24,468 nucleotides of DNA. Origin: Sarcodiotheca gaudichaudii (lineage: Eukaryota; Rhodophyta; Florideophyceae; Gigartinales; Solieriaceae). Within the stretch, counting starts at the first letter, position 1. Each line of letters begins with the position of its first letter. Both the position numbers and the translations under genes were made by a program. This document shows positions 2,591 through 23,581 of this stretch, piece after piece. Below the pieces are notes generated by a model that saw only the letters and a program-made list of their open reading frames with translations, did no database searches and had not been told where the DNA came from. Location of the stretch: positions 1 through 24,468 of the forward strand of contig JAUKVZ010000024.1 in the NCBI GenBank assembly GCA_032355985.1, in the 5' to 3' direction.

Positions 2591-3040
2591 ATGGAATACG
2601 GCGAAAAGTTCCAACTGAAACTCGTTGAAAGAACTCACGAGATCCTTGAGCAGTACGGCGGCGAAAACGACGCCACGATTCTCCTGAACTGCTTGCTCGG
2701 CTTGCTCGCGATTCCGAATGCCAATCTCCGGAATCGGATTCCGCAAGATGGTGTCGATCGCTTTTCAGCATGGGGCCTCGAAGGGGATTGCGTCAAGGCC
2801 TGGGGAATGCGCAAGAAGAAGGCCGCAGACGAGGATATCCGCGAGGTCGTCCGAAGCCTGCGAAATGCCGTGACACACTTCCATGTCAAGCCGCTCGAAG
2901 ACCGGTCGCTCGTCACAGGGTTCTGTTTCTGGGATGACAGTGGATTTAGAGCGAAGTTGACATTGACACAGATCGAGGACTTGGCCAGGGCAATGACAAC
3001 TCATCTGAACCCAGATCTTGAGCAACAAAGATCCCCATGA
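2591..3040 (+). CDS. HEPN-family RNase candidate
   Basis: A 149-residue, mostly helical protein. The sequence RNAVTH gives Arg91 and His96 in the R-x4-H arrangement that forms the active site of HEPN ribonucleases. The upstream helix (ATILLNCLLGLLAIP, about residues 28-42) and the layout resemble the small HEPN families found beside defence and toxin genes, such as the pEK499 p136-type HEPN group; that subfamily label is from memory. A strong AGGAGG site at 2579-2584 sets the ATG at 2591. No MNT nucleotidyltransferase or other usual antitoxin partner is next to it; its neighbours are the ACT-TIR-like gene (86-base gap) and the STAND nuclease (144-base gap). It probably cleaves RNA as a dimer when released from control, but which neighbour controls it cannot be read from the sequence. 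Confidence 0.65.
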   Translation: MEYGEKFQLKLVERTHEILEQYGGENDATILLNCLLGLLAIPNANLRNRIPQDGVDRFSAWGLEGDCVKAWGMRKKKAADEDIREVVRSLRNAVTHFHVKPLEDRSLVTGFCFWDDSGFRAKLTLTQIEDLARAMTTHLNPDLEQQRSP

Positions 3041-6100: not shown

Positions 6101-9055
6101 TCACTTTCGTGGCCAGTCTCTTGGAAGCACGATGAGCGCGAGTTCCGCGAACTCCTCGATCACGAGTGGCTCGGTCTGGTCAGCCAAGCGATGGTGCTCG
6201 CGACCAAGAGTGGCAATCAAGTCACACTGTCACTCGACGACATTCGTCGGCTGTGGAGTACGCGCGGCGGATACCCACCTGTGTTCTCTCTGCTTGTGTC
6301 AGCATCGACTTACGATTGGATGGATGGCGAGGCAGTTTCAGAAACCGTCAAGTGGATCAAGAGTAAAATCCTTAGTTGGCCTGTTTCCTTTCAAGAGCGG
6401 GCAGACGCGCTCGCTGCGCTATCTGTAGTCGCCGCGCATGCCGGACTGATTGATGAAGCGAATTTGCTCACGGAGCTCGTGTCGTCAAACATGCTTGGGT
6501 ATGGCTATCACAAGGACTCGACCCTTCATTCAACACTCGATCTGATTTGCACGCTCGCCGAGTACGATCTCGGCGATCCTATTGAAACGTTGGAGCGAAT
6601 CGCTCCATGCGTTGCGGCTGTTCAAGACTGCACGGACGGAGATGAGACGCGGCACCTGCCATTGGAGTTGTTCGAAGTACTAACTCGAGTAGCGCCGGAC
6701 AGAGCGCCGGACTATCTGATTTGGATGCACGATGCTGAGGATTGGTACAACCTAGGGCGATGTCTTGAGCACTTCTTCGAAACCTCGGACATGGACAATC
6801 CGCTTCATCGTGCGCTGGGACGAACGGCAGGCAACTCGGCCGAGATCCAGACGTTTGCATCCGCGTGGCGCCGCTGGATAAACTCGGAGTGCTCAGACGA
6901 GCAAAGGCCATCTGAACTAGCCGCGCTGGAACGCTGGGAATCGATAACCAGTTGTGGAGTTGATGCCTCGGCGGCACCTTCGCACGGCGAGCTCGAAGGT
7001 CATTCGCATGCGGAGTCATCGACGAGATCAGAGACCTTTGAGGACCTAGTTTCCACTCTCGAAACCGTGGGCTTTTCTCGCGAACTCCGGGTGCGAGCCG
7101 ACTGGCCACTCCTAATCCGTCGTTGGTTTCCCACCTCGCTGAGCACCTCTAGAGCGAACGAACTGAAGAGGCTCGTAGAGCTGTGGCTGGAAAACGGAGA
7201 CCAATTCTCTTGCGAGATCACAGATAGCTTGTGGGAGGTATGTCTCAATAATGGTATGAGAGACTCGGCGTTCCGATTACTCTGCATGGCGCAGGCGCAA
7301 GGCCACGGCTGGTTCAGCTTCTGGGGATCGCCTGACGATTCACTCAATCGCCAGGAAGCCGTGCTCGGACATTTTTCTGAGCGCGCGGAGGAGTTTGTTC
7401 GAAGGTCAATTGAAGCTGCTGGCATTGAATCCGGAATCGGCCACCCAGACGTTGTGACGAAGTTTCTGGCCCGAGCAGATCGGGGCGACGTTGCAGCGGA
7501 TATCGTTGAGCGCTGGGTAGACCATGTCATTCGAATGTTTCCTGAATATCCGCTGCAAGATCAGCAGTGGGCGAATTCGGATGACCCAATTCATGGTGCA
7601 CTTGATCTCCTCGTTTCTCGGGTTTCGCATCCCAGCGCTGCAATTCGGGTGTCCGCTGCTCAAGAGCTCTCGAGGTTACCGAATCCTTCGCGCGCGGCCG
7701 ATTGCATGATTCGGAGAATCGAGGCCTGCCGCGACGATGGCGAATGCCTCGGCGAATGGCTAGCACTGCTTCTCTTACTGCGCGAAGCTCCTGAGGCCGT
7801 CAGTTCAGAAAAGATCAAGAGCGCTTGTGAGAACAAGGGCGAATTGAGTCTCATTTTGCGTCGTGAAGCACTACGCCTGAAGGGTGACGATGCAGAATCA
7901 GAACTGCGGCCCATTCATTCATTGCCCGGAGTCGTGCGCCCTGATTGGTTTGAGGAGATACTGCAAAGAGGCCCCCTCGGATACAGACTCAAGAGACTTT
8001 CGGATTCTCTTTCCAGTCTTGTTAGTGATGGCATCTATGCCCACGTCAAACTCCGTGGACTAACGAGGCGCCGAATTCACGATCTCATTAAGGCCGACAA
8101 CCTCTATTCGAGTCTCGATGATTCGTACACTCCTCATGACAATCGCTTATATGACATGTTGATTTCCGGTCTGTCAGCCACCGCTGCGAATGCTGGCGAC
8201 GAGATGAACGATGCCTCAGCCGAGAGAGTGAAGAGAATGGTCAGAGGTATTATTCCATTCGATCTTTCTTTCGCTCGTACTACCATCCATGCGCCTCCAA
8301 CATGGATTCCAGACAGAGTTCGCTCGGGCGGGCATACATCCGGAATCCAATCGTTCTCGCTTATTGACTGGAGTCGGGTCACTAAGGACGATCAATGCGA
8401 ATCTCGTCCGCTTGCGCTCGACGCTCAGGTGCGGCATCAAGGCGCTTCGGAGCATACGCGAGTCCTACCATTCCTCTATGAGTGGACCGGAGTCGAGCAA
8501 CCCGCACCGGAGCATGTTTACATGTACTTGGAAGGAACGTGGCTATCTCGAAAAGGTGATGATCTAGAAGCACTCCTCGACTTGCCCGGTGAGACCTTTG
8601 GCGAAGCTCCGTATTTTCCAGCAACGTGTGGAGGCTTATCGATCTTCGCGATTACTGGCGAACAGCGTTGTCTCGCACGCCGGTGGCATGCCCTTCATGG
8701 ATTCGTCGGTCCTATTCGGCTCTTACCCGATACACCATTCTCTGGAATTCTTAGCATGGAACAGTTGAATGGCGACCTAGTGTTCCTTGAGGCCCCATCA
8801 GCTGACCCGATTGCGATTGGTCGATTCTGGCAACTCGAGCGGCACGGCCCGATTCACAGGGAACTGGGATTGTCGGGCGGATTCACACTTGATGTCTCGC
8901 AGGAATGGCTAGCAAGTAGACTAGAGCGCATTGGACTGCGGCTAGCTTGGGTACAGAAAACAACGCTATCCTACTACGACAAGTATGGCAGACCGAAGGT
9001 GCGCCAAGACGAGGTCTTCTCGTTCCATAGCCTCTCCAAAGTTCTCATCCCTTGA
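3185..9055 (+). CDS. Avs-like giant STAND NTPase with N-terminal Cap4/DUF4297-like nuclease
   Basis: A 1956-residue protein in three parts. Residues about 15-200 resemble a Cap4/DUF4297-type PD-(D/E)XK DNA nuclease: Glu46, Asp54-Asp55 in ALDDVVI, and Gln68-x-Lys70 in EFIQVKY. A NACHT/STAND-type NTPase follows, with Walker A GPPGSGKSS at 273-281 (Lys279) and Walker B LLLVVLDGLDH ending at His385 (Asp381). From about 600 to 1550 the chain is helical and repeat-like, as in TPR or ARM sensor arrays, and about 1580-1956 is a strand-rich end I do not recognise. The size and order match AVAST (Avs) proteins, in which the C-terminal sensor binds a phage protein such as terminase or portal, driving tetramerisation and unleashing the nuclease. 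The type within Avs cannot be fixed by eye, and another NACHT nuclease family is possible. The start has a GAGAAG site just upstream. No interruptions were seen across 5.9 kb. Confidence 0.75.
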   Translation: MDPNDSNQRRAHASRRLGDDYQDIVGLEALLKLLVNPTNTSAVRFEADQAGALDDVVIQHVAHTEFIQVKYAVDRNQEWSVEDLTMPTRPGGKSLLRKWAAGWRSLVEQYSALEARVETNRIPGEDLNQYLVSDGTELNVRELDDTHPLIASTGLPASDARTFLQSLNFSFGNPMLEARLERIRSDFANLGVTDRGWASLLESMRRWARYIEGDGWLRVGDVRIAAKLWDPMEKPISQDFGSDPRVHVLVQSKIDTLLSLVLESKGQFTTVTGPPGSGKSSLLSALVNTAKNQQQRFHAVIRHHCYLSQDDLEHERRLQSNTAATDLCRQLYQTFASELRQHPDVSKLNLENPGVADLRDWIAICSEIAFDQGKLLLVVLDGLDHVYDERGKEELHVLLRQLPIPAPDGLHCVLGSQNRPNLLPSRLSTVVSHRYKHQGFDENEVRAYASGYLSHSPTSDVVSALCSVSEGNPLYLRYLLAEAESYDAIDSDWVIARPVYGGNIDSYYAALWTELNAVSRVLVIALSEVDFAFPTADVPSLMGAMNHSAAEIDSAMRATQHLVLQSKGGIRIYHSSFRFFLRELDKTKPIRTAALQAIRNWLSECGNDGLRWSYEWSYDLRLGNATPLLSGMTREWVKRSIRELRPIPRLLELMKLACNEALMRDNLALAYVTGSLIWTVQTAADLERDDGALADLRRCALRLRGFKPVARVAMAEGYSWDAPSLCEISRAAALQGDIDLSSDIFRHLQKRLSRDKYIDEQDVAQVYRAGACAGIEQDRIIRHHVANSERGSETINIAWAAYVHELALLRDFFGLSTLTVEDRLSDAERASAADKLAEFYDQARSSDFALKSLRRAAMTSSSNYLAFCLAAHEVGYEFGHPTSPFHHDLDSPPLLHGDRGTWRSRYALTFWRTLRLVVSNNREDLQTYREDLANDGRQRSKAMRTLTNIAEESGALFGDGNFSIDALCDHIDSLSWPVSWKHDEREFRELLDHEWLGLVSQAMVLATKSGNQVTLSLDDIRRLWSTRGGYPPVFSLLVSASTYDWMDGEAVSETVKWIKSKILSWPVSFQERADALAALSVVAAHAGLIDEANLLTELVSSNMLGYGYHKDSTLHSTLDLICTLAEYDLGDPIETLERIAPCVAAVQDCTDGDETRHLPLELFEVLTRVAPDRAPDYLIWMHDAEDWYNLGRCLEHFFETSDMDNPLHRALGRTAGNSAEIQTFASAWRRWINSECSDEQRPSELAALERWESITSCGVDASAAPSHGELEGHSHAESSTRSETFEDLVSTLETVGFSRELRVRADWPLLIRRWFPTSLSTSRANELKRLVELWLENGDQFSCEITDSLWEVCLNNGMRDSAFRLLCMAQAQGHGWFSFWGSPDDSLNRQEAVLGHFSERAEEFVRRSIEAAGIESGIGHPDVVTKFLARADRGDVAADIVERWVDHVIRMFPEYPLQDQQWANSDDPIHGALDLLVSRVSHPSAAIRVSAAQELSRLPNPSRAADCMIRRIEACRDDGECLGEWLALLLLLREAPEAVSSEKIKSACENKGELSLILRREALRLKGDDAESELRPIHSLPGVVRPDWFEEILQRGPLGYRLKRLSDSLSSLVSDGIYAHVKLRGLTRRRIHDLIKADNLYSSLDDSYTPHDNRLYDMLISGLSATAANAGDEMNDASAERVKRMVRGIIPFDLSFARTTIHAPPTWIPDRVRSGGHTSGIQSFSLIDWSRVTKDDQCESRPLALDAQVRHQGASEHTRVLPFLYEWTGVEQPAPEHVYMYLEGTWLSRKGDDLEALLDLPGETFGEAPYFPATCGGLSIFAITGEQRCLARRWHALHGFVGPIRLLPDTPFSGILSMEQLNGDLVFLEAPSADPIAIGRFWQLERHGPIHRELGLSGGFTLDVSQEWLASRLERIGLRLAWVQKTTLSYYDKYGRPKVRQDEVFSFHSLSKVLIP

Positions 9056-9193: not shown

Positions 9194-10147
9194 ATGGGAA
9201 TGCCACGAAGAGTCGATCTAGATCGCTGGGCGCCCTCATTGACGCAGTTGGACAAGTGGCTCCGAGCCGAGCACCCGACGGCGTCGCGCCTGTGGCTCAA
9301 TCGCCTTCTTTCGAATGACCAAACGAGAGTCGAAGCAGCTGTCGCCGAAGCAGTTGTGTGGGATCATCTTCTCAGTCGTACTTGCTCGGTCGACCTGATC
9401 GAGGATCACAAGACCCCCGGCGTCGACTTCGAGTTCTCGTCAAACGGACAGCGTTTTCGAGTGGAAGTGACAAATCTCTCGTCGGCGGCCGTCTCGCGGG
9501 CCAGCGGATTGGCCGACGCGCCACCTTCCGGCGGTGCGCGGAACTACGCCCTCCTGACAAAAAGGATTCGAGCGAAGGTTCGCAGCAAGCTCCGCCAGGC
9601 GAGATACTCAGCCGAATATCCAACACTGATAGCGGTCACAACTCTTCACGAGCAAGCGAGCCGAGCCTGCGTCAATCGAACAGCGGTAGAGTTCGCGATG
9701 GGCTCGACGCCGGCGATCACCTACGACTACGACCCGGAATCGGGCGAAGCGATTGGCGAGGCGTATCAATCGACGGATCTCCGGGAGTCCGTGTTCCTCT
9801 CACCGAATCCGATCCTCGGCGCCGATGGCAGGCCGATCATCAAAGCGAAATTCGAGCCCATCTCTGGGTTCCTGCTCGGTGGGTTCGGGCTGGACCCAAG
9901 CGCTGTCCGAGTGTTCGGCGCTCTGAATCCTGCTGCCAAACGCCCGTTCGACCCTCTGCTCTTGACCGATGTGCCATTTTGCGAGCTGTCGCCGTGGCCG
10001 GTCACAGATTCGATCCAGTTTCAATGGACAATCACCGCCGCGGACGAAGCGGAATCAAGCCGACGAGCGTCAGAGCGAAGGCTACGGAAAGCCGGTCTAG
10101 GCCATATGGTCGATGCGATCCGAGAGGATTTGAAGAACTCCCAGTAA
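9194..10147 (+). CDS. PD-(D/E)XK-like protein of unknown role
   Basis: A 317-residue protein without a family I can name. Residues 47-95 have the look of a restriction-endonuclease-like core: a helix with Glu52, then Asp78 in GVDFEF, then Glu91 in FRVEVTNL. The usual lysine is replaced by Thr93, as in some divergent members, so it may be an altered or inactive nuclease. The C-terminal 30 residues are charged and helical. Two starts are possible, ATG 9194 and ATG 9200; the second is preceded by GGAATGGG, which could act as ribosome binding site. It lies 138 bases after the giant STAND gene in the same direction, with GC content between that block and the next cassette. It ends before a strong terminator, so it may be the last gene of the defence transcript. 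A longer frame on top of it (9358-10611) looks like a shadow. Confidence 0.5.
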   Translation: MGMPRRVDLDRWAPSLTQLDKWLRAEHPTASRLWLNRLLSNDQTRVEAAVAEAVVWDHLLSRTCSVDLIEDHKTPGVDFEFSSNGQRFRVEVTNLSSAAVSRASGLADAPPSGGARNYALLTKRIRAKVRSKLRQARYSAEYPTLIAVTTLHEQASRACVNRTAVEFAMGSTPAITYDYDPESGEAIGEAYQSTDLRESVFLSPNPILGADGRPIIKAKFEPISGFLLGGFGLDPSAVRVFGALNPAAKRPFDPLLLTDVPFCELSPWPVTDSIQFQWTITAADEAESSRRASERRLRKAGLGHMVDAIREDLKNSQ

Positions 10148-10725: not shown

Positions 10726-10968
10726 ATGTCACGAACGCGCAATTACGCGGATCCCGACGAACTCACATCCGACCAACGTCTCGCCGAGGTCGCCGCGATT
10801 CTCGCGCAGGGTTGCCGCCGCGTGGCCGACAACGGGCAGATTCCCTCTGAATCAAGCGAGAACTCTCCAGTTGGTTCGCCAGCATGCCTTGATCGTGCGC
10901 AGGAAGAAGCCCTCATGGACGAACCGGTTAACGAACCCGGAGAACGGAGAGTCGGCCAATGTCCATGA
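10726..10968 (+). CDS. Small conserved protein of serine-recombinase cassettes
   Basis: An 80-residue acidic protein. Residues about 7-30 (ADPDELTSDQRLAEVAAILA) form one predicted amphipathic helix; the rest is probably disordered. Short proteins with a similar DELT-x-DQRLAEVAAILA segment are familiar to me beside DUF2924 and large serine recombinases, although no function is known. The frame extends back to 10696, but the ATG at 10726 begins the conserved MSRTR part and is preferred; its ribosome binding site is weak. The stop overlaps the ATG of the DUF2924 gene as ATGA, so the two are translationally coupled. Confidence 0.65.
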   Translation: MSRTRNYADPDELTSDQRLAEVAAILAQGCRRVADNGQIPSESSENSPVGSPACLDRAQEEALMDEPVNEPGERRVGQCP

Positions 10969-11471
10969 ACTTCAACGCGATGCTTATAGCCCTCAAGCGA
11001 ATGACCGTGCATGAGCTGCAGGATCGCTACATCGAGGTCTTCGGTGAACGCACGCGTTCCAACCACAAGCGGTACCTGATCAAGCGCATCGCCTGGCGTC
11101 TGCAGGCGCAGCACGAGGGAGACCTCTCCGCACGAGCCAAGCGGCGCGCAAAGGAGCTGGCGAACGACGCTGACCTTCGAAGCCATCCACCCAAGGCGAA
11201 GGCGTCGAGTATTCCACTTGAGGGTGATCTCGTAGTGCGGGCCAAGTTCGACGTTCCCATCGATGAACGGCTGCCGATGCCCGGGACGATCCTCTCCCGT
11301 GAATACAAGGGCCGAGTCATTCTCGTCCACGTGCTGCGACGCGGATTCGAATACGAGGGTGAGGTGTACCGCTCGCTCTCTGCGGTCACCAAGGCCGCGA
11401 CCGGCAGCCACTGGAACGGCTACCACTTCTTCGGCTTGAAGTCGCCGACCAAGAACGGGGGCAACTCATGA
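10965..11471 (+). CDS. DUF2924 protein, partner of the serine recombinase
   Basis: A protein of about 168 residues of the DUF2924 family. Recognisable parts are the N-terminal MTVHELQDRYIEVFGE helix, the NHKRYLIKRIAWRLQ segment, and the C-terminal GRVILVHVLRRGFEYEGE and SLSAVTKAATGSHWNGYHFF blocks. The C-terminal part resembles small DNA-binding modules (a SAP-like or homing-accessory fold has been suggested for similar proteins), so a DNA-binding accessory role is an inference. Two starts are possible, ATG 10959 and ATG 10965; the second overlaps the preceding stop as ATGA, the pattern repeated at every junction in this cassette, so I use it. Its own stop overlaps the recombinase ATG in the same way. 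DUF2924 genes next to large serine recombinases are common, which supports the assignment. Confidence 0.85.
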   Translation: MNFNAMLIALKRMTVHELQDRYIEVFGERTRSNHKRYLIKRIAWRLQAQHEGDLSARAKRRAKELANDADLRSHPPKAKASSIPLEGDLVVRAKFDVPIDERLPMPGTILSREYKGRVILVHVLRRGFEYEGEVYRSLSAVTKAATGSHWNGYHFFGLKSPTKNGGNS

Positions 11472-13024
11472 GCCGACAGAATGGAGCGCCCACGGCGCCC
11501 GAGATCCGATGCGCGATCTACACGCGCAAGAGCACCGAAGAGGGCCTCGACCAGGACTTCAACTCACTCGACGCCCAGCGCGAGAGCGCCGAGGCGTATA
11601 TCGCCAGCCAGAAGAATGAAGGCTGGGCCTGCCTTCCTGAGCGCTATGACGATGGCGGCTATACGGGCGGCAACATCGATCGACCCGCGCTGAAGCGCTT
11701 GCTGACCGACATCGAAGCCGGGCGGGTCGATTGCATCGTGGTCTATAAGGTAGATCGTCTAAGCCGGTCGCTGATGGACTTTGCGCAGATGATGACGATC
11801 TTCGAACAACACAGCGTCTCGTTCGTCTCTGTCACGCAACAGTTCAACACCACGCATTCGATGGGAAGGCTAACACTCAACATCCTGCTCTCGTTCGCCC
11901 AGTTTGAACGAGAGCTCATCAGTGAGCGGACGCGCGACAAGATCGCCGCGTCTCGGCGCAAGGGGAAGTGGGCCGGAGGCAGGCCGATCCTCGGCTACGA
12001 TGTCGATCACAGCAGCCCGCGACTGGTCGTCAATGAGAAGGAGGCCAAGCGCGTCCGGGCGATCTTCGCCCTCTACCTCGAGAAACAGTCTCTGCTAAAG
12101 ACCGCCGCCGAACTTGAGCGGCGCGGCTGGCAGACCAAGCTGTGGACCAGTCGCAGCGGTCTTGTCCATGGCGGCGTCCCATTCAATAAGACGCGCGTTC
12201 ACGGCCTCCTCGCCAACGTGGCCTACCTCGGCAAGGTCCGCCATCACGACAACGTATACGAGGGCGAGCACGATTCAATCGTCGATGCGGCGGTGTTCGA
12301 AGAGGTCCAGCAGACGCTTCGAGCGAATGGACGCACGGGCGGCGCGCACATCCGCAACAAGCACGGCGCACTGCTCAAGGGCCTGCTCTATTGCGGGCCC
12401 TGCGGCGCCGCGATGGGCCACACCTACACGAAGAAGAATGGATCGACGCTCTACCGCTACTACGTCTGCGGTGCCGCGCAGAAGCGCGGCTTTCACTCAT
12501 GCCCGTCCCGGTCACTCCCGGCGCTTGAGATCGAGCGGTTCGTTGTCGATCGCATCCGAGGTATCGGACAAGATCCATCGTTGCTGGCGGCGACGCTCGA
12601 GCAGGCCATGGAGCAGGAAGAGTCTCAGATCGGCGCCCTGGCGCAGGAACGCCGTGCGGCGACCCGAGAGTTGAAGCGGCTCAATCGCGAGATCCGATCC
12701 GCCGCCCTTGACGCAGACGCCGATCCGCATGCCGCAGCGCGGCTGGCCGATCTGCAGGACCGGCTTCGTGATGAGGAAATGCGTCACGCGGAGAACCATC
12801 AACAGATAGAGGCTGCGCAGTCCCGGCTTATCACCCGCGAGGATCTCGAGGCCGCGATGGCAGTGTTCGATCCGATGTGGGATGCGCTCAGCCCGCGTGA
12901 GCAGGCGCGAGTCCTCCAACTGCTGATACGACGCGTCGAGTACGACGGTGAGAAAGGAAGCGTTTCGATCACCTTCCGGCCGGATGGGATCAAGGCGCTG
13001 ACGAACGGAGGAGTCTCAGCATGA
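11468..13024 (+). CDS. Large serine recombinase
   Basis: A 518-residue DNA integrase or excisionase of the large serine recombinase family. The N-terminal resolvase domain (about residues 13-155) has the nucleophile Ser22 in YTRKST, the SLDAQRE and VDRLSRS motifs, and the long FERELISERTRDKI helix that leads into the Recombinase domain (about 170-280). A zinc ribbon follows with Cys309, Cys312, Cys334 and Cys345. Residues about 370-460 form a coiled coil of the kind that controls direction of recombination. Length and domain order are normal and no damage was seen. Such enzymes join short attP and attB sites without host factors. It is coupled by ATGA overlaps to the genes on both sides. Whether it moves the block to its left, the QueC-like operon to its right, or only itself cannot be told without the att sites. 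Confidence 0.95.
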   Translation: MSRQNGAPTAPEIRCAIYTRKSTEEGLDQDFNSLDAQRESAEAYIASQKNEGWACLPERYDDGGYTGGNIDRPALKRLLTDIEAGRVDCIVVYKVDRLSRSLMDFAQMMTIFEQHSVSFVSVTQQFNTTHSMGRLTLNILLSFAQFERELISERTRDKIAASRRKGKWAGGRPILGYDVDHSSPRLVVNEKEAKRVRAIFALYLEKQSLLKTAAELERRGWQTKLWTSRSGLVHGGVPFNKTRVHGLLANVAYLGKVRHHDNVYEGEHDSIVDAAVFEEVQQTLRANGRTGGAHIRNKHGALLKGLLYCGPCGAAMGHTYTKKNGSTLYRYYVCGAAQKRGFHSCPSRSLPALEIERFVVDRIRGIGQDPSLLAATLEQAMEQEESQIGALAQERRAATRELKRLNREIRSAALDADADPHAAARLADLQDRLRDEEMRHAENHQQIEAAQSRLITREDLEAAMAVFDPMWDALSPREQARVLQLLIRRVEYDGEKGSVSITFRPDGIKALTNGGVSA

Positions 13025-13440
13025 CCGACGGATTGACGATCGAGTTCTCTGTCCACAGGCACAAGGGCGCCCGGTGCGAATTGCGAGATGGTGATGCGCC
13101 AGCCGAGCCGGCGGCGCCAAAGCCACCACCGGGCAACGTACCGCGCGTCTCGCGGCTGATGGCGCTCGCGATCCGGTTCGAGCAGCTGATCCGCGATGGT
13201 GAAATCGCGGACTACGCCGACGTCGCACGACTGGGCCATGTCACAAGAGCCCGCGTGACACAGATCATGAACCTGCTCAATCTGGCGCCTGACATCCAGG
13301 AGGAGATCCTGTTCCTCCCTCGCACGGTGACGGGGCGCGACGCGATTACCGAGCGCGAGCTGCGACCAATCGCGTGCGAACTGGACTGGAACAAGCAGAG
13401 AAAGACGTGGCGACTTTTGAAGGTTGAGGCTAGGTCCTGA
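13021..13440 (+). CDS. Small HTH protein ending the recombinase cassette
   Basis: A 139-residue protein with a disordered proline- and alanine-rich segment (about 26-40) and a helix-turn-helix at about 64-88 (DYADVARLGHVTRARVTQI), similar to the ParB/KorB-type HTH. The C-terminal part, ITERELRPIACELDWNKQ, is shared with the decayed copy downstream. GGAGGAG at 13007-13013 gives a strong ribosome binding site, and the ATG overlaps the recombinase stop. Proteins of this type commonly end DUF2924-recombinase cassettes. I infer a DNA-binding accessory or directionality factor, or a regulator of the cassette; the sequence does not separate these. Confidence 0.75.
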   Translation: MTDGLTIEFSVHRHKGARCELRDGDAPAEPAAPKPPPGNVPRVSRLMALAIRFEQLIRDGEIADYADVARLGHVTRARVTQIMNLLNLAPDIQEEILFLPRTVTGRDAITERELRPIACELDWNKQRKTWRLLKVEARS

Positions 13441-13599: not shown

Positions 13600-13815
13600 G
13601 GCGACGAGTTGTCGCGGCGATCGCAGGGCTCGGCCACGTCACCCGGGCCCGCGTGAGCTGAATCGTCAACCTCCTTAACCTCGCTCCTGACATCTAGGAG
13701 GCGATTTTGTTCCTCGCTCCGGTGGCCGGGGAGGGGGACGTGGTGTCGGAGAGGAAATATCGGAGGATCGCCAATGAACCGGATTGGGAGTGCAGCGAGA
13801 GATCTGGCGGGTTGT
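13600..13815 (+). pseudogene. Decayed second copy of the recombinase-cassette HTH gene
   Basis: Translation resembles the preceding HTH gene over its last 60-70 codons: GLGHVTRARV, NLLNLAPDI and AILFL are recognisable, and the downstream part (SERKYRRIANEPDW) matches the position of TERELRPIACELDW in the intact gene. The reading frame is interrupted, so it is no longer a gene. The C-terminal part differs enough from the intact copy that it is more likely a relic of a related, older cassette than a recent duplication. No recognisable recombinase or DUF2924 remnant precedes it: the flanks 13441-13599 and 13816-13996 hold nothing I can identify. Confidence 0.75.
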
Positions 13816-13996
13816 CTGCAGCTGACACAGAACTGTGTGAATGAGCGATCCATGCTTCTCCGTTCATGTGCCCTCCCAACAGCACCTCATTGTCGACATG
13901 CCACAAGCTACGGCAGCCGCTAGCCTTGCACCTGACGGCTCAGCGATCACGGCGTCGTAGCCTTGACTAGTAGCCGTCTTCCGATGGACTGGCGAC

Positions 13997-14770
13997 ATGG
14001 GGCACACCCTTCTCGGCCAACTCAAGCGGACTCGGCAATACATGCAGGTTGTCGCTCTGCTTGCCGGTGGCGCCGAGGCGCACCAAATCGCCCAGGCGGT
14101 GATCCAACTCGCCGAAAAGCACTTCAATCTTGCAGCAAACGACGAGGTGCTGGTCGAGACGATTCACACGTTGATGCAACTTCCCATCGCAGCACGTTCA
14201 ACTGACTTCGTGGCGGCCCTTCAGGAGCAAGGGATTGAGGTGCCGCACGCCCCTACAGCCAATGAGCTCATCGTTGCAGTTGTCGAGTCCATTGACTGCA
14301 AAGTCGCTAGCGCAACCAGACGAACAGATCTCGGTGAGATTGCTCAGACAGTGGCCGCGGAGGCGTTGAGTGGCCACCTCAAGGATCGGCTCGGGCTGCT
14401 CTACGACGGGGCTCGCCCGGAAGATGTGCAAAGCGCTCTAGCGATGACGCATTCTCCGAAGAACTTCGGTGAGTTCGCTCGTCGATTTACCGCGGGCGTT
14501 ACGAACCAGGTCTTGGACTACTTCCTTGGGCCTGTGATGTCGAGCGTGACGGGTGGGGACGAAAGGTTTCCCACGCTCGCTGCAGCCAGTGCCTATCGGG
14601 AAGCTCTCAAGACCCACACTTATGAGGCCGCAAAGATCGTGGAAAAATTCTCGGGGGACTGGTATTCGCAGGTGCAACAACCTGGCAAAGGGCTGACCCG
14701 TGACGAGGTCGGCAAGTATGCCTTCGGCGCCTTTCAGAAGTTGAGTTCAGAGTTGAAGGCAGGTCTTTGA
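13997..14770 (+). CDS. Helical partner protein of the QueC-like enzyme
   Basis: A 257-residue, almost entirely helical soluble protein. I do not recognise a named domain. Conserved-looking segments are LKRTRQYMQVVALLAGGA at the N-terminus, RTDLGEIAQTVAAEAL near residue 110 and NFGEFARRFTAGVTNQVLDYFL near 155. I associate the middle segments with unnamed proteins encoded beside QueC-like genes, from memory and without a search. The start at 13997 keeps the N-terminal block; ATG 14042 would remove it. The stop overlaps the next start as TGATG, so the two proteins are probably made together and may form a complex. GC content is lower than in the replication module, which suggests separate acquisition. 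Function is unknown; a scaffold, substrate carrier or sensor for the enzyme is a guess. Confidence 0.7.
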   Translation: MGHTLLGQLKRTRQYMQVVALLAGGAEAHQIAQAVIQLAEKHFNLAANDEVLVETIHTLMQLPIAARSTDFVAALQEQGIEVPHAPTANELIVAVVESIDCKVASATRRTDLGEIAQTVAAEALSGHLKDRLGLLYDGARPEDVQSALAMTHSPKNFGEFARRFTAGVTNQVLDYFLGPVMSSVTGGDERFPTLAAASAYREALKTHTYEAAKIVEKFSGDWYSQVQQPGKGLTRDEVGKYAFGAFQKLSSELKAGL

Positions 14771-16821
14771 TGCCGAATGAGCGACACATCATCTGTGGAG
14801 GTCTATCGGTGTCCGCCGTTCGTGAGATGGAAGCCCTCCATCTGTCCACGCATGGACCCGACGCCAACGCACGCCTGAGAGTGACCGACCTGACGAAGAG
14901 CCTTGTTGCCAACATTCCAGATACGTTCCTCGACCTGATTGAGTTGGCGACTTATGTATATGTTGCCGACCAGGCAGTGTCGCGCGGCAGAAACAAACTC
15001 GACAACATGCAGCCCAAGTGGCGCCGCCGGCTCGTGTTCGATGTGCCGGTGCGCTGTTTCGAACTATGGAGATCTGACCTGGTAGTCGAGGAGCTGAGGC
15101 GGACGCTTGGGTTTCTATCTGACGATGAGTACGAGTTCCGATTCCACCCATACCCAGACCCCCCTGCGCGCGATCAGTATTTTCCGTTCATTGAAGTACC
15201 GCAGTCGATGGCACCTGAGCACGTTGTGCTGTTCTCCGGCGGATTGGACTCTCTGGCGGGCGCTATCCAGGAAGTTGTACACGGCGATGGTCCGGTCTGC
15301 CTCCTAACGCATGAGCCAACGCCAAAGTTTCGGCCGCGCCAGCAACTACTCCGGAATCACTTGGATGACCGAGCTTCTGGCCCTGCTCCGCTGCATGTCA
15401 CAATCAGAGTCAATAAGACAAAGGAACTCAATCGTGAATACACGCAGCGGACTCGGTCATTTCTTTATGCGAGCCTTGCTGCGGCGGTAGCCCGAATGGC
15501 CGGGTTGCGGAGAATTCGCTTCTATGAGAATGGAGTTGTGAGCATCAACCTCCCGCTCGCAGCAGACGTCGTCGGCGGCCGTGCGACGAGGACGACGCAT
15601 CCATACGTTCTCAATGGATTCGGCCGCCTGTTCTCGCTACTTGCAGACCTAGACACTGGGTCGGAGTTCAGAGTCGAGAACGGATTCCTCGACAAGACAA
15701 AGGCTGATGTCGTTCGGATGATCCTCGATGCGAATTGTGCCTCGATGATCGAGACGTCGACGAGCTGCACACATACTTGGACCTGGACCCGCGAGCACAC
15801 CCACTGCGGAGTCTGCTCCCAGTGCATCGACAGGCGATTTGCGATATTGGCTGCAGGTGCTCGGGAGCACGATCCTGCAGCCAGATACAAGGCCAATCTC
15901 TTCCTGTCACCGCGACCGAAAGATGAAGACCGCCGGATGGTCGCGTGCTATGTCGAGATGGCAAGGTTGGTTGGCCAGATGACGCTGGTTGATTTCAAAG
16001 AATCGTTCGGTGGCATCTTTCGGGTGGCAGGGCAGTTGCCGGGTACTGTCGATGACAACGTCTCACAGATCTTCAATCTTTACAAGCGTCACGGCAGCGA
16101 GGTCGCGGGTGTTGTCGCCGACGCGCTCGCCGAGCACAAAGACCTCATCCTCAATCGAACGCTACCGGCCAATAGCCTGCTCCAACTGGTCCATGATCTG
16201 AGCATCCCGGTGGAAGGGATGGTCCGCGATTCGACATCAACGGAAACTAGCGACGAGATTAACGACGCCCGATTCGTCTTCCGGAGAGCGGAGCAGACGT
16301 GGAAGTACCGCTTCGAGAGACGAGGCCCCGAGACCAAGACTCTTCTCCCAAGCAGGGGCGCGTCATACCTACACGTCCTTCTTTCTAATCCAGAGAAGGA
16401 ATACTCCGTTGCGAGCCTCGTGCTCGAGGTGGCGAAGGCGCCGCAGGAATACCAGTTCGAGGGTGGAGACGAAGTGCTCGACGACACAGCTCGGAAGGCG
16501 ATCTGGTCGGAGTACCAGGAATACGAACAGCGCATTGAGGACGCCAGCCGGAATCAGCACGAGGGCGAGGCTGAACTGCTTCGAGGAGAACAGGAGAGGT
16601 TACTTGCTGCAATGAAGGAGGCTGGGTTCCGGAATAGGCCAAAGAAGCTCGGCGACGACCGCGAACGTCATCGAAAGTCGTTTAGCATGGCGATCACAAG
16701 GGTCCTCAAACAGATCAACGAGTTCGATGAGCCCTTCGCGAACCACCTCCGCAGTTGTCTCCGGCGTGGTCGAACACCGTGCTACAGGCCACCCGATGAG
16801 GTGGTTTGGGTGACCACCTAG
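14770..16821 (+). CDS. QueC-like PP-loop enzyme with C-terminal regulator-type domain
   Basis: A 683-residue protein. The middle is related to QueC (7-cyano-7-deazaguanine synthase, ATP-dependent): PP-loop SGGLDS at 156-161 and a zinc site from Cys333, Cys346, Cys349 and Cys352 (the last three as C-x2-C-x2-C). QueC itself is about 220-240 residues, so this is three times normal length. Residues 1-140 form an extra N-terminal domain. Residues about 505-683 look like the end domain seen in many actinobacterial ATPase and cyclase-type regulators: GASYLHVLL, then DDTARKAIWSEYQ, a charged coiled coil, then RKSFSMAITRVL and a CYRPPDEVVW ending. No queD, queE or queF is nearby, so queuosine synthesis is unlikely; QueC-like proteins also occur in Qat, type IV CBASS and related defence systems. 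TTG at 14767 is in frame, but ATG 14770, overlapping the upstream stop, is the better start. Confidence 0.8.
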   Translation: MPNERHIICGGLSVSAVREMEALHLSTHGPDANARLRVTDLTKSLVANIPDTFLDLIELATYVYVADQAVSRGRNKLDNMQPKWRRRLVFDVPVRCFELWRSDLVVEELRRTLGFLSDDEYEFRFHPYPDPPARDQYFPFIEVPQSMAPEHVVLFSGGLDSLAGAIQEVVHGDGPVCLLTHEPTPKFRPRQQLLRNHLDDRASGPAPLHVTIRVNKTKELNREYTQRTRSFLYASLAAAVARMAGLRRIRFYENGVVSINLPLAADVVGGRATRTTHPYVLNGFGRLFSLLADLDTGSEFRVENGFLDKTKADVVRMILDANCASMIETSTSCTHTWTWTREHTHCGVCSQCIDRRFAILAAGAREHDPAARYKANLFLSPRPKDEDRRMVACYVEMARLVGQMTLVDFKESFGGIFRVAGQLPGTVDDNVSQIFNLYKRHGSEVAGVVADALAEHKDLILNRTLPANSLLQLVHDLSIPVEGMVRDSTSTETSDEINDARFVFRRAEQTWKYRFERRGPETKTLLPSRGASYLHVLLSNPEKEYSVASLVLEVAKAPQEYQFEGGDEVLDDTARKAIWSEYQEYEQRIEDASRNQHEGEAELLRGEQERLLAAMKEAGFRNRPKKLGDDRERHRKSFSMAITRVLKQINEFDEPFANHLRSCLRRGRTPCYRPPDEVVWVTT

Positions 16822-18365: not shown

Positions 18366-18674
18366 ATGCGACCGGACATCTATCGGTACATCTTCAGCGA
18401 GACCGTGCCGGTCGAAGAGGCCGAGGCGACGCTGCATCTGGCGATCCTTGCAGCCGAGAGCCTCTTCGGTGAATCGCGCGTGCGCATGGACGCGGCCTAC
18501 ACCATCGAAGAGGGGGCGCGCGTGTGCGCCATCGACGCTTCGAACGAGGTCGGGCGGAGCATCTGCCGCATATTCACCGGCTACCTGATCCGAGAGTTCG
18601 GCCAGGATCACTTCAAGGTCCGCTCGGTGAACGCGCCCAAACCCCTCGATGACGCACGGGCTGGCGCGGCGTGA
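18366..18674 (+). CDS. Small protein of unknown function
   Basis: A 102-residue protein beginning MRPDIYRYIFSETVPVEEAEATLHLAILAAESLFGE. A strong GAGGAG at 18353-18358, 7 bases before the ATG, supports the start. The pattern of VPVEEAEATLHLAILAAE (helix), SRVRMDAAYTIEEGARVCAIDA (strands) and GRSICRIFTGYLIREFG (helix) recalls an unnamed family I associate with similar islands. No catalytic motif is visible. Its place between the sigma-like gene and the annealing ATPase suggests a role in replication or its control. Confidence 0.65.
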   Translation: MRPDIYRYIFSETVPVEEAEATLHLAILAAESLFGESRVRMDAAYTIEEGARVCAIDASNEVGRSICRIFTGYLIREFGQDHFKVRSVNAPKPLDDARAGAA

Positions 18675-18735
18675 CAACGACATGGCCCTTTCTGAAAGCC
18701 CTGACGCACCATCGCACGCGCGGAGACGCACGCAT

Positions 18736-19518
18736 ATGACACTGCTCAGCCAGATCCAGAGCGGCAGGCAGCCGCGGCCGCGCCGGGTGATGCTCTACGG
18801 CACGCACGGCATCGGCAAGTCCACCTTCGGATCGATGGCCGACACGCCGGTCTTCATTCAGACGGAGGATGGGCTCGGCGAGATCGACTGCGACAAGCTC
18901 CCGATCGCCACGCGATACAGCGATGTGCTGGCTGCGCTCTCAGAACTCTATAGCCAGGATCATGAGTACAAGACCGCAGTCGTCGATTCACTGGACTGGC
19001 TCGAACGCCTGATCTTCGCCGAGGTCTGCGCCAGACGGAGTCTCGAATCGATCGAGGACATCGGCTACGGCAAGGGCTACACATTCGCGTTGACGCATTG
19101 GCGAGAGATCCTCGAGGGGCTCGACGCGCTGCGCAATGAACGCGGCATGCAGATCATTCTCATCGCGCACGCTCGGATCGAGAAGTTCGAGAACCCCGAG
19201 ACCGAGTCCTACGACCGCTACGTGCCGCAGCTCAACCGACACGCGTCTGCCTTGGTGCAGGAATGGTGTGACGAGGTGCTCTTTGCCACCTATCGCGTGC
19301 ACACCAAGCAAATGGACGAGGGCTTCAACCGCAAGCGCGCCCAGGGCATCGGAACCGGCGAGCGGATCATCCGCACCACTGAGCGCCCCGCGGCCATGGC
19401 GAAGAACCGCCTCAACCTTCCTGACGAGATGCCTCTCGACTACCGCGTCTATGCGGCGTTCCTAAGCGGCGAACACCAGGTCGATACGAACAACATCCCA
19501 TCTGACCAAGGAGCCTGA
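18736..19518 (+). CDS. Sak4-like AAA_24 ATPase
   Basis: A 260-residue RecA-fold ATPase of the AAA_24 family, which includes the Sak4 single-strand annealing proteins of phages. Walker A is GTHGIGKST at 22-30 with Lys28, TEDG follows the first strand after it, and YKTAVVDSLDW gives Walker B. The IILIAHARIEKFENPE strand is the sensor region. Single-strand annealing would support recombination and replication by pairing with the SSB-like DUF669 protein encoded 2 bases after its stop. I choose ATG 18736 because a GGAG lies about 10 bases upstream and the conserved part starts there; ATG 18682 and 18649 overlap the upstream gene more. No damage seen. Confidence 0.8.
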   Translation: MTLLSQIQSGRQPRPRRVMLYGTHGIGKSTFGSMADTPVFIQTEDGLGEIDCDKLPIATRYSDVLAALSELYSQDHEYKTAVVDSLDWLERLIFAEVCARRSLESIEDIGYGKGYTFALTHWREILEGLDALRNERGMQIILIAHARIEKFENPETESYDRYVPQLNRHASALVQEWCDEVLFATYRVHTKQMDEGFNRKRAQGIGTGERIIRTTERPAAMAKNRLNLPDEMPLDYRVYAAFLSGEHQVDTNNIPSDQGA

Positions 19519-19520
19519 AC

Positions 19521-19976
19521 ATGGCCAATCTCAATGGATTCAACGCGCATGAAGTCGAGCCAAACGTCGGCTTCGAGCCCATCCCCGCTGGCAAGCACCT
19601 GTGCGTCATCACCAACACCGAAATGAAGCCGACCAAGAATGGCGCCGGCGAATACCTCGAGATCGAGATGGACGTGATCGATGGGCCGCAGAAGGGCCGC
19701 AAGGTGTGGGATCGACTCACGCTCAAGCATCCCAACGAACTGACTGTGCGCATCGCGCGCAGCACGCTGTCATCGATCTGCAGAGCGGTCGGCGTGATGG
19801 CGCCCAAAGACAGCGTCGAGTTGCACAACCTGCCTCTGATCGTGAGTGTCGGCTGCAAGAGCCGTGAGGACACGGGCGAGCAGACCAATGTCGTCAAGGG
19901 CTATGCGGCGCGCGAGACGGAGTCGCCGCAGCACACGGCGACGGCAACCGGAAGCACGCCGCCGTGGAAGCGCTGA
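19521..19976 (+). CDS. DUF669 protein, probable single-strand DNA-binding partner
   Basis: A 151-residue DUF669-type protein. Recognisable parts are PAGKHLCVITNTEMKPTKNG near residue 22, GEYLEIEMDVIDGPQKGRKVWDRLTL at about 42-67 and a C-terminal disordered tail ending PPWKR. DUF669 proteins occur in phage and plasmid replication modules beside Sak4-like ATPases and helicases, and an SSB-like role is commonly inferred. AAGGAG at 19508-19513 gives an excellent ribosome binding site inside the end of the preceding gene, so the two are coupled. Confidence 0.8.
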   Translation: MANLNGFNAHEVEPNVGFEPIPAGKHLCVITNTEMKPTKNGAGEYLEIEMDVIDGPQKGRKVWDRLTLKHPNELTVRIARSTLSSICRAVGVMAPKDSVELHNLPLIVSVGCKSREDTGEQTNVVKGYAARETESPQHTATATGSTPPWKR

Positions 19977-20009
19977 CCTGAGCGCTTGCGCCATGGAGCA
20001 TCAAGCGTG

Positions 20010-21698
20010 ATGGAACTCCGTCCCTATCAACGCGACGCGGTGGGCGCAGTCTGGCGGCACATCGCCGCCAGCGACACCAACCCTGCGGTCGTCCTCCCAA
20101 CAGGCTCCGGCAAGACGCACGTGATCGCCGAACTCTGCCGCGACGCGGTGGAGCGCTGGGACGGCCGCGTCATCGTGCTTGCGCACGTCAAGGAACTGCT
20201 GGAGCAGGCGGCGGGCAACCTCCGGGCCGTTGCGCCTGAGTTGCCCATCGGCGTCTACTCGGCGGGGCTTGGCAGGCGCGACCTGGGTTACGCCGTCACG
20301 ATCGCAGGCATCCAGTCTGTCTATCAGCGGGCGCACGATCTGGGGCCACTCGACGTGGTGATCGTTGATGAGGCGCATCTGATTCCGACTGAGGGCGAGG
20401 GCATGTATCGCCGCTTCCTCGCTGACGCTCGAGATCTGTGCGAACACCAGCGCGTCATCGGCCTGACGGCAACGCCCTACCGCTTGAAGACGGGCATGAT
20501 CTGCGCGCCGGAGAATATCCTCAACACAGTCTGCCTCGAAGTCGGCGTGAAGGAGCTGATCACACAGGGGTATCTCTGCCCGCTGCGAAGCCGCGCTGGC
20601 AGGGCGGAGGTCGACACCAGCGCGCTGAATGTGCGGGGCGGCGAGTTCGTCAGCGGTGAGGTCGAGGATCTCATGGACGAAGATGGGCTCGTCGAGAAGG
20701 CGTGCGCCGAAATCGTCATGGCGACGACTGACCGGCAATCTGTCCTGCTCTTCTGCTCGGGCGTCCGCCACGGTGAACATGTGGCGCGCGCGCTGCGCGA
20801 GCGGCACGGCGTCGAGTGCGGGTTCATCTCCGGGGAGACACTCGCTAAGGAACGCGACGGACTCATCGGGCGCTTCAAGTCCGGCGACCTGAAATACCTC
20901 GCCAACGTCAACGTGCTGACAACCGGATTCGACGCGCCGAATGTGGACTGCGTGGCGATGCTTCGGCCGACGCTCTCGCCCGGTCTCTACTACCAGATGG
21001 TCGGGCGGGGATTCCGTCTATGTGAGGGCAAGCGCGACTGCCTCGTGCTCGACTTCGGCGGCAACGTGCTCAGGCATGGGCCGGTCGACGCGATCCAGTT
21101 GGCTAACCCAAACAGAGCTCAAGGGATCGCGCCGGCCAAGCAGTGCCCTGAGTGTGATGCGCTGATCCATGCCGCCTACGCCATCTGTCCTGAGTGCGGG
21201 CACGCGTTCCCGTCAAGAGAGATCAGGCACAATGCGGCCGCGTCGGACGAAGCGATCGTCTCGGGCCAGGAGGGCCCAACACGGCGCATTGAGCCGGTCA
21301 GCGAGGTCTCGTATCACGTCCATTCCAAGCGCAGCGACCCGCTGGCCAAGCCGACGATGCGAGTCGATTACCGCATCGGATTCAACGACTGGGTGCGCGA
21401 GTGGGTCTGCATCGAGCATCCACCCGGTGGCTATGCGCGCAAGAAGGCTGAGCAATGGTGGCGGAAGCGCTCGGACGACCTCATTCCAGACAGCGTTGAA
21501 GAGGCCGTCGAGTGGGCCCGCGCCGGCGCCGTCGCACAGACTCTGACTGTCACCATCGAGAAGAAGCCGGGTGATCGATGGGAGCGGATCGTCGGCTATG
21601 AGCTGGACGAGAAACCGCCACGACTCGAGAGCGATGAAGGGGCGCCGGAGTATGTAGGCATCAGCGAGGATTCAGATGAGTGGGACACTCCATTCTGA
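20010..21698 (+). CDS. DEAH-box superfamily 2 helicase with zinc ribbon
   Basis: A 562-residue SF2 helicase. Motif I is LPTGSGKTHV with Lys35, motif II is DEAH at 120-123, motif III is GLTATPYR, and motif VI is YQMVGRGFRL. The order LRPYQRDAV at the start and FDAPNVDCVAMLRPTLSPG before motif VI are typical of the RecQ/UvsW-like and phage replication helicases. A zinc ribbon follows the second RecA domain with Cys379, Cys382, Cys393 and Cys396. The C-terminal 150 residues are less conserved and may bind DNA. The frame opens at TTG 19986; GGAG at 19995-19998 favours GTG 20007 or ATG 20010. It could unwind replication forks or origin DNA. Its stop overlaps the next start as TGATG. Confidence 0.88.
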   Translation: MELRPYQRDAVGAVWRHIAASDTNPAVVLPTGSGKTHVIAELCRDAVERWDGRVIVLAHVKELLEQAAGNLRAVAPELPIGVYSAGLGRRDLGYAVTIAGIQSVYQRAHDLGPLDVVIVDEAHLIPTEGEGMYRRFLADARDLCEHQRVIGLTATPYRLKTGMICAPENILNTVCLEVGVKELITQGYLCPLRSRAGRAEVDTSALNVRGGEFVSGEVEDLMDEDGLVEKACAEIVMATTDRQSVLLFCSGVRHGEHVARALRERHGVECGFISGETLAKERDGLIGRFKSGDLKYLANVNVLTTGFDAPNVDCVAMLRPTLSPGLYYQMVGRGFRLCEGKRDCLVLDFGGNVLRHGPVDAIQLANPNRAQGIAPAKQCPECDALIHAAYAICPECGHAFPSREIRHNAAASDEAIVSGQEGPTRRIEPVSEVSYHVHSKRSDPLAKPTMRVDYRIGFNDWVREWVCIEHPPGGYARKKAEQWWRKRSDDLIPDSVEEAVEWARAGAVAQTLTVTIEKKPGDRWERIVGYELDEKPPRLESDEGAPEYVGISEDSDEWDTPF

Positions 21699-23581
21699 TG
21701 GCCGACGCACCACCGAAGTTGCTCAGCGAGGCGCTGCGCCTCGCCGGGCTTGGCTATCGCGTCTTCCCGCTTGAGCCCAGGACGAAGACACCGCGCGCAG
21801 GCTCCCGCGGCGTCCATGACGCGACGGCTGATCCTGACGTGATCCGCAGTTGGTGGCGCGACACCTCCGACGCGAACATCGGCCTTGCCTGTGGCGATGG
21901 GCTGCTTGCGCTCGACGTGGATCCCGGCGCTATTGAATCATTCGGCGCCGAGGAGGTGGCAAGCCTGGAGCTTGACTGGGCTGGCAAGCCTCGATCACGC
22001 ACACCGCGTGGTGGGTTCCATCTGCTCATGCGAGAGCCCGAAGGCGTCGTGCTTCGCAATAGCGCTGGCAAGATCGGCCAGGGCCTCGACATTAAATGCG
22101 CAGGCGGATACATCGTCGCGCCGCCATCGCGTGTCGTCGATTCCGCAAAGGCCATCGATGGCGAGTACGAGTGGATCGAGCGGCTTGCCTGTGCGCCGGA
22201 AGATCTGCCTCAGGCGCCATCATGGCTGGCTCCGGCGCTTGCAGAGGCAGCCACGCAGAGCAACATCCTGGGAACCGATGGCGCTCCTGAGTTGATTCCC
22301 GAAGGCCGCCGCAACGACGCGCTCGCCTCGATCGCTGGGCGCCTCCGGCGAATCGGGCTGGATGATCGGGCCATCGCCGCAGCGCTTGGCGCCGTCAACA
22401 GCGCTCGCTGCAGGCCGCCACTTGATGAGCGCGAGGTCGAGCGCATCGCATCGTCAATCGCTCGATATGAGCCGCACGTCGATCTGGTTGCCGAGGCGGC
22501 GTCAGGCGTCGATCTGAGCGAGTTCATGCTGGCGGCGCCGGCGAAGCCAGATGATCCGCTCGAACCTGCGCCTGTGCCCGTCGGTCGATTGGTCAGCGCT
22601 TATCCCGCGCTGCGCCCGCCCGTCATCCACGGCCTGCTGCGCGAAGGCGAAACGATGAATGTCATCGCAGCGCCCAAGACGGGCAAGAGCTGGCTGACTC
22701 TTGATCTGGCGATCGCTGTCGCCACCGGACGGCAATGGCTGGGGATGTATCCCACCGAGGCTGGCGAAGTTCTCATCATCGACAACGAACTTCATCGCGA
22801 GACAAGCGCTCATCGATTGCCGAAAGTGGCCAACGCGCGCAGCGTCACCCTGCGCGAGATCAACGAGCGAATCTTCATCGACAATCTTCGCGGGCGCCTT
22901 CGAAGCATCCTCGACCTGGCCCCTTACTTCGAAGCGCTTGAGCCGGGACGCTTCAAAGTAATCGTGCTCGACGCGTTCTACCGCTTCATGCCCATCGGCG
23001 GCGACGAGAATGACAACGGCATGATGGCGAATATCTACAACGCCGTCGATCGGTTCGCCGACAGGCTGGGCAGCTGCTTCGTCCTCATCCACCATTCAAC
23101 CAAGGGCAGCCAATCAGGCAAGAGCGTGACTGATGTTGGAGCCGGCGCCGGCGCCCAGAGCCGTGCGACGGACACGCATCTCGTGCTCAGGCCTCACGAG
23201 GAAGACGGGGTCGTCGTCCTCGACGCCGCTGTGCGCTCGTGGCCGCCACTAGACCCGACGTGCCTGAGGTGGGACTTCCCCGTATGGACCGTCGATGCGG
23301 GGCTCGACCCGGCTGCTCTTCAAAGCGAGAAGTCAAAGAAGCGCGCAGCGCCAGGCGCCGACTGGAGCGCCGAGATGTTCGCGCAGGCATTCGTCACGCT
23401 GGAGCCAGCGCCTCGCGGATCGATCCTCGCAGCTGCCTGCAACACCGGTATGAGCAAGTGGCGGGCAACATGCCTGCTGCGAGAGGCGGAGGCGGCTGGC
23501 CTGCTCACACGCCAGAGTGAGGGCCGGAACCGGCCATCGATGTACGCGATCAGTCCATCCAGGATCGACGACCCAGCCTGA
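21698..23581 (+). CDS. PrimPol-helicase replication protein
   Basis: A 627-residue fused replication protein. Residues about 7-180 form the bifunctional DNA primase/polymerase (PrimPol) domain with Asp73 and Asp75 in LALDVDPG and His108 in GGFHLL. A PriCT-1-like helical segment (about 202-261) follows. Residues about 300-540 are a RecA-like ATPase of the RepA/AAA_25 type with Walker A AAPKTGKSW (Lys330) and Walker B VIVLDA (Asp425). The last 70 residues look like a winged helix (FAQAFVTLEPAPRGSILAAA). The plan primase, helicase and DNA-binding end is that of self-sufficient replication initiators of plasmids and phage satellites. I start at ATG 21698, which overlaps the helicase stop; an in-frame GTG at 21680 lies inside that gene. 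The repeat-rich region just downstream is the natural candidate for its target. Confidence 0.88.
   Translation: MADAPPKLLSEALRLAGLGYRVFPLEPRTKTPRAGSRGVHDATADPDVIRSWWRDTSDANIGLACGDGLLALDVDPGAIESFGAEEVASLELDWAGKPRSRTPRGGFHLLMREPEGVVLRNSAGKIGQGLDIKCAGGYIVAPPSRVVDSAKAIDGEYEWIERLACAPEDLPQAPSWLAPALAEAATQSNILGTDGAPELIPEGRRNDALASIAGRLRRIGLDDRAIAAALGAVNSARCRPPLDEREVERIASSIARYEPHVDLVAEAASGVDLSEFMLAAPAKPDDPLEPAPVPVGRLVSAYPALRPPVIHGLLREGETMNVIAAPKTGKSWLTLDLAIAVATGRQWLGMYPTEAGEVLIIDNELHRETSAHRLPKVANARSVTLREINERIFIDNLRGRLRSILDLAPYFEALEPGRFKVIVLDAFYRFMPIGGDENDNGMMANIYNAVDRFADRLGSCFVLIHHSTKGSQSGKSVTDVGAGAGAQSRATDTHLVLRPHEEDGVVVLDAAVRSWPPLDPTCLRWDFPVWTVDAGLDPAALQSEKSKKRAAPGADWSAEMFAQAFVTLEPAPRGSILAAACNTGMSKWRATCLLREAEAAGLLTRQSEGRNRPSMYAISPSRIDDPA

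Follow-up and report, generated by a model that had tools for sequence, protein, structure and literature searches.

The whole stretch of DNA analysed here (the window; 24,468 nucleotides, contig JAUKVZ010000024.1 of the Sarcodiotheca gaudichaudii assembly GCA_032355985.1) is an entire contig of phage-like bacterial DNA, and the subject of this report is a pair of overlapping genes on its forward strand. The first, open reading frame 1 (ORF1; 13997..14770, stop codon TGA at 14768-14770), encodes a QatB-like helical partner of 257 amino acids that begins Met-Gly-His (codons at 13997..14005, the putative modified N-terminus). The second, ORF2 (14770..16821), encodes a QatC-like enzyme with a C-terminal module. 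The two genes overlap by one base in the sequence TGATG (14768..14772), through which their translation may be coupled. The listed start of ORF2 was TTG at 14767; as most relatives in alignment A2 open with M-x-N-E-R, ATG at 14770 is the likelier start. Residue numbers of ORF2 are counted from TTG 14767 (684 amino acids).

The architecture of QatC is complete in ORF2, as is its active site. In structural alignment, the QatC fold spans it over the full QatC length, both extensions included, and a PDB sequence search returned two solved QatC sequences (3.9e-31 and 5.5e-27). PADLOC assigned ORF2 to QatC (3.5e-53), and the NCBIfam QatC model NF041925 gave 196 bits, below its equivalog cut-off of 280. 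The QueC equivalog TIGR00364 gave 20.4 bits against a cut-off of 150.3. In the Pfam scan, ORF2 matched QueC PF06508 only (25.6 bits versus a cut-off of 22), and ORF1 had no match. Relatives of ORF2 at E<=0.001 numbered 2136 among 7992 scored candidates, and in a tree the ORF2 branch was placed on its own side of a fully supported split from canonical QatC.

All parts of the enzyme are encoded on the forward strand. The N-terminal extension (residues 4-148, 14776..15210) was aligned to QatC 9y02_B from residue 2; the original prediction for this locus had taken it for an extra domain, but such an extension is standard in QatC. It is followed by the PP-loop SGGLDS (residues 157-162, 15235..15252), the Thr/Thr pair of QatC (T274-R-T276, 15586..15594, aligned to T278/T280 of P. 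aeruginosa), the zinc site formed by C334, C347, C350 and C353 (15766..15825), and the C-terminal helical extension (about residues 378-480, 15898..16206, the structural alignment reaching residue 477), which corresponds to the QatB-binding side of QatC. The QueC-type PP-loop and zinc site, proposed in the same prediction, were borne out, as S157-G-G-L-D-S162 and all four cysteines are invariant in the 39-row alignment A2. Neither the PP-loop serine nor the zinc cysteines are lost in the family; over 388 distinct cores, S157 was present in 387/388 and S162 in 388/388.

The predicted structure of ORF1 matches QatB, as seen on re-examination with VIA-align. With Foldseek alone, QatB was absent from the top 50 matches of the ORF1 model, and profile-profile comparison with seven canonical QatB, then with 147 QatB-like sequences, gave no match. 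ORF1 opens MGHTLLG, with modelled helices at residues 2-10 (low confidence) and from 13. Gly2 was observed in 151/151 distinct loci with a readable partner start (MGH in 147; MGT, MGQ, MGN and MGG in one each), as counted with a profile from sequences preselected for MG[HTNQ], the start codon nearest the first column being taken. With the unselected A1 profile, MGH was found in 146/154, one further locus (L031) had MGQ, and seven were without an N-terminus or start there. Residue 2 of the adjoining QatC-like protein was Gly in 0/152, with starts roughly placed, and the canonical QatB start was MGTS in 7/7. According to the available text of PMC13279940, the QatB substitution G2D abolishes defence, and Gly2 of the CBASS partner is the site where Cap9 attaches 7-deazaguanine. 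Because of the structural match to QatB and of Gly2 in every readable relative, ORF1 is the likely modified target, in agreement with one of the two roles predicted for the helical protein. That Met-Gly-His is near-constant in partners too divergent for QatB sequence comparison supports, independently and on evolutionary grounds, a modification of the N-terminal glycine.

The two genes form a nearly constant overlapping unit that recurs far beyond chance. Loci with ORF2 relatives were taken from genomes and viral contigs (the 80 best from either source, 160 in total). Another 77 loci came from viral contigs, many of which had already been sampled; after duplicate removal, 164 distinct loci were obtained, including that of the window (L003). 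Rather than being unassociated elsewhere, the genes showed strong association, with an ORF1-type gene present in 157/164 distinct loci. Both genes lay on the same strand in 155/155 loci counted, and the QatC frame was open ahead of the QatB stop in 152/155 distinct loci. Among the seven loci without a partner, no such gene was found in L006 and L035 despite kilobases of sequence upstream, and most of the others start at a contig edge. In two phylum-wide samples, an ORF2 relative (E<=1e-60) was found in 8/392 and 3/398 genomes, seeds included, both values being lower bounds. The partner started with MGH in 11/11 loci of these samples, of which seven were new and four (L255, L257, L263 and L265) repeat earlier loci.

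Two loci deviated in their organization. At L026 (4196-7753), a natural single-frame QatB-QatC fusion of 930 amino acids from an MGTT start was found, which could serve directly as a single-chain construct in structural studies. On a Rhodobacteraceae plasmid (L169), a start-truncated QatC-like gene lies beside IS3 transposase genes, and no partner gene was found.

As predicted, no queuosine gene was found among the 14 window ORFs scanned (7 with Pfam and/or 10 with PHROGs; 58-654, 10959-11471 and 18366-18674 were among the ORFs left out), and the pair recurs as a stand-alone unit without que neighbours. Relatives of QueC, QueD, QueE (below the model cut-off) and TGT are encoded in the host genome, so a deazaguanine donor would probably be at hand. 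In single-sequence searches of 247 pair loci, relatives of these host proteins were found in none except the host's own que loci; homologues of the pair were thus not located in queuosine operons. This result also bears on the proposal that ORF2 is a phage gene for deazapurine modification of DNA or tRNA, of the PreQ0 anti-restriction type. The QueC fold and the phage context would agree with such a role, but it is mostly refuted, and hardly credible, given the absence of host QueD/QueE/TGT relatives beyond those que loci, an active site of the QatC and not the QueC type, and the near-constant helical partner.

The nature of the attached group was considered from the active site. In QueC and Cap9, Tyr/Asp residues read 7-deazaguanine, while QatC has Thr/Thr; this pair is essential in QatC, and the QatC reaction could not be reconstituted (available text of PMC13279940), so that a donor other than carboxy-deazaguanine is possible. 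In ORF2 the Tyr/Asp readers are likewise replaced by Thr/Thr, and the deazapurine originally proposed is only a possible attached group. Over the 388 cores, residue 274 was Thr in 253 and Ser in 133, and residue 276 was Thr in 384 and Ser in 4. The putative attached group is possibly 7-deazaguanine and more likely whatever canonical QatC uses. The Thr/Thr or Ser/Thr residues, together with the lack of any que gene found with the pair, would also suit an enzyme-substrate pair for protein modification in which the attached group is not deazaguanine and the role, unconnected with defence, is housekeeping or phage takeover. The sporadic distribution in the phylum-wide samples, the effector-type tails described below and the homology to a tested defence core make such a role very improbable.

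Beyond the QatC extensions, ORF2 carries an added C-terminal module (residues 501-684, 16267..16818, forward strand), which is a probable winged helix of the OmpR/PhoB type with a helical hairpin insert at about 572-618 (16480-16620). Comparison with curated families returned coiled-coil noise only. The prediction that this domain is known from actinobacterial regulators was in keeping with its occurrence in three actinobacterial records (Nonomuraea, Embleya and Streptomyces); in the Streptomyces record, the module ends a protein with weak TPR matches.

The tails of relatives were surveyed in 480 sequences. Half of these came from loci (240) and half were proteins (240), the latter chosen as the 120 closest to the window and the 120 closest to a Leptospira plasmid protein; 10 of the 480, without the zinc-site pattern, were dropped. 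Sequences were counted as distinct when they differed in the last 200 core residues, so near-copies remain. It was evident that 386/391 distinct ORF2 relatives run past the QatC end. The tails comprised the probable winged helix of the window, other helix-turn-helix-like (HTH-like) ends, DpnII/MboI-type nucleases (PDx...ExK in order in 107/111) and the effector-associated domain EAD7; as the survey sampled the nearest sequences to two references, these numbers are not frequencies. The added modules join where a Bradyrhizobium QatC carries TatD (QatD). This modularity, with exchangeable C-terminal tails on a QatC core, is what is new.

Several individual tails were also recorded. In P0255, a QatC-like protein ends in EAD7, joined at the same point as the TatD of the Bradyrhizobium protein (L253). 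A TIR/DUF4062 tail in P0242 was below the Pfam cut-off (0.0029) and was not counted. The tail of P0249, in which no Pfam cut-off was reached, has a motif that we take to resemble that of PD-(D/E)XK nucleases.

When known systems are considered, the layout, which had been regarded as unlike any other, corresponds to the QatB-QatC core of qatABCD. Structures of the QatB-QatC complex are available (PDB 9y01, 9y02, 9zee and 9vlk/9vll), and the core is sufficient against some phages, QatBC alone being sufficient against lambda-vir (available text of PMC13279940). As in qatABCD, ORF2 has the QatC fold with both extensions, the PP-loop, the Thr/Thr pair and the zinc site, and a QatB-fold helical partner with N-terminal Met-Gly is encoded directly upstream in an overlapping frame. 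In contrast to canonical QatB, in which MGTS stands on 30-90 disordered residues, the window partner has Met-Gly-His with a short lead-in and is not recognisable as QatB by sequence; the enzyme differs by its added C-terminal module. Neither qatA (KAP NTPase) nor qatD (TatD nuclease) was found among the 14 scanned window ORFs. With phmmer, one QatA matched L058 only besides three control loci, and one QatD matched the three control loci only. Lacking qatA, qatD, the MGTS start with its long tail and the curated score, the pair was treated as a Qat variant.

Other systems were more distant. Type IV CBASS (PDB 9nto; available text of PMC11996544 and PMC13279940) differs in that Cap9 is short, keeps Tyr/Asp and modifies a CD-NTase; neither a CD-NTase nor a TGT-like Cap10 was found in the scanned window ORFs, and a relative of host TGT occurred in none of the 247 loci. 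The Bradyrhizobium QatC-QatD fusion (L253, 3321-5450) likewise has a module after the QatC C-terminal extension. However, this module is TatD (at 468-705), and the locus still encodes a P-loop NTPase as well as a protein annotated as QatB. Canonical QueC is much shorter, with a Tyr/Asp substrate motif and a que operon, and a canonical copy is encoded separately in the host. In the literature, C-terminal QatC fusions are not mentioned in the available text of PMC13329287, and the main text of PMC13279940 does not contain the words winged, helix-turn-helix, fusion, fused, endonuclease or standalone. Beyond PMC13279940, PMC13329287 and PMC11996544, no such pairs were described in the titles and abstracts of the open-access articles retrieved; one of these articles, PMC13141931, names QatC six times.

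The genomic setting was evaluated among the pair loci, by relatives of window genes. In the window, the pair lies between a serine recombinase (11468..13024, forward strand, phrog_95, 5.1e-122), which is a recurrent neighbour, and phage replication genes (Sak4-like, SSB, helicase and primase; 18649..23581, forward strand). Relatives of the recombinase were found in 89/161 distinct loci and those of the helicase in 47/161, and among the 44 genome loci flanked by 5 kb to either side the recombinase was present in 19, replication or early genes in 19, and either in 28. Of the 161 distinct loci, 86 came from viral contigs, a source that had been scanned deliberately. As recombinase or replication relatives adjoin many pair loci, phage-like elements appear to be frequent carriers of the pair. 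No conserved third gene was observed, the neighbour clusters resembling phage and recombinase genes. In 13/148 loci, a greedy gene caller placed another gene on the same strand no more than 60 bases downstream; this caller chooses incorrect frames when DNA is rich in GC, and only the counts obtained later with profiles are relied on.

Upstream of ORF1 by about 160-175 bases, a palindrome with one mismatch, TGACACAG-AA-CTGTGTGA (13823-13840), is a candidate operator. None of the 11 relatives compared has this palindrome. A second palindrome is located at 13639-13656.

The position between a serine integrase and replication genes of temperate phages raises the alternative that the pair is the phage's own regulator, its DNA-binding tail making it a modification-dependent repressor or a superinfection-immunity switch and not a general defence system. 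The 28/44 flanked genome loci with recombinase or phage early/replication relatives, the share of viral contigs, the frequent HTH-like tails and the palindrome ahead of ORF1 would all be compatible with this. Nevertheless, it is considered unlikely, as sister branches bear defence effector domains (DpnII/MboI with its ordered motif, or EAD7), 16/44 flanked genome loci are without those phage genes when relatives of window genes are sought, and the palindrome is not shared by the relatives compared.

Other features of the window were also noted. Between the small recombinase-associated gene at 13021-13440 and ORF1, a decayed copy of the 3' part of that gene is present (13614-13805; 64 residues, 55% identity, internal stops), a scar which suggests that recombinase cassettes were exchanged beside the pair. 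Further upstream, 3185-9055 encodes a STAND-type NTPase of 1956 amino acids, with similarity to SAVED/PDDEXK endonuclease effector models, in their N-terminal part, at residues 9-123 (3.1e-20) and to Avs1b at residues 355-588; judged from these matches, it is probably an Avs-like defence protein. A HEPN protein of the pEK499_p136 family (PF18736, 1.2e-22) is encoded at 2591-3040. For the 531-2504 product, encoded upstream of the recombinase, similarity to ACT and, at the C-terminus, to nucleoside deoxyribosyltransferases was weak and in neither case reached the cut-off. The protein of 317 amino acids from 9194-10147 has no family; its DFEFSSNGQRFRVEVTNLS is presumably similar to a PD-(D/E)XK core and is a candidate only. 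The pair is not accompanied elsewhere by these upstream genes, as relatives of the STAND, HEPN and 531-2504 proteins were found in 0/161 loci and those of the 9194-10147 protein in 1/161.

Taken by analogy with characterised systems, the pair is likely to be a stand-alone, mobile-element-borne Qat anti-phage core, in which ORF2 modifies Gly2 of ORF1 and the tail acts at DNA. By homology with qatABCD and type IV CBASS, removal of Met1 would free the Gly2 amine of ORF1, which would enter the active site of ORF2. The enzyme would activate a carboxylate with ATP and join it to Gly2, and the modified 1:1 ORF1-ORF2 complex would be the armed state. From the tail survey, the C-terminal module may serve as an output or targeting arm that replaces the separate qatD nuclease; the probable winged helix of the window would place the complex on DNA, the corresponding part in sister branches being a DpnII/MboI nuclease or an effector-associated domain.

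More tentatively, and with somewhat less than even confidence, stand-alone QatBC may represent a class of modular immune systems. In these, an effector fused in cis to the modifying enzyme would be controlled through modification of the N-terminal glycine of a helical protein. The C-terminal slot would take exchangeable modules, either DNA-acting (winged helix, other HTH, DpnII/MboI, TatD) or adaptors (EAD7), and the spread of the winged-helix forms would be due to temperate phages. If this is true, qatD becomes one choice for the C-terminal slot, and the class gives a direct read-out of the effect of the modification. The step from QatB modification to phage restriction is named as an open question in the available text of PMC13279940, and a core fused to recognisable output domains, such as the DpnII/MboI nuclease, offers an assay that canonical Qat lacks. 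According to the available text of PMC13329287, QatC falls in a single cluster, of which only about one member in three has qatA or qatD as a neighbour; stand-alone pairs may explain part of the QatC-cluster genes without qatA or qatD neighbours.
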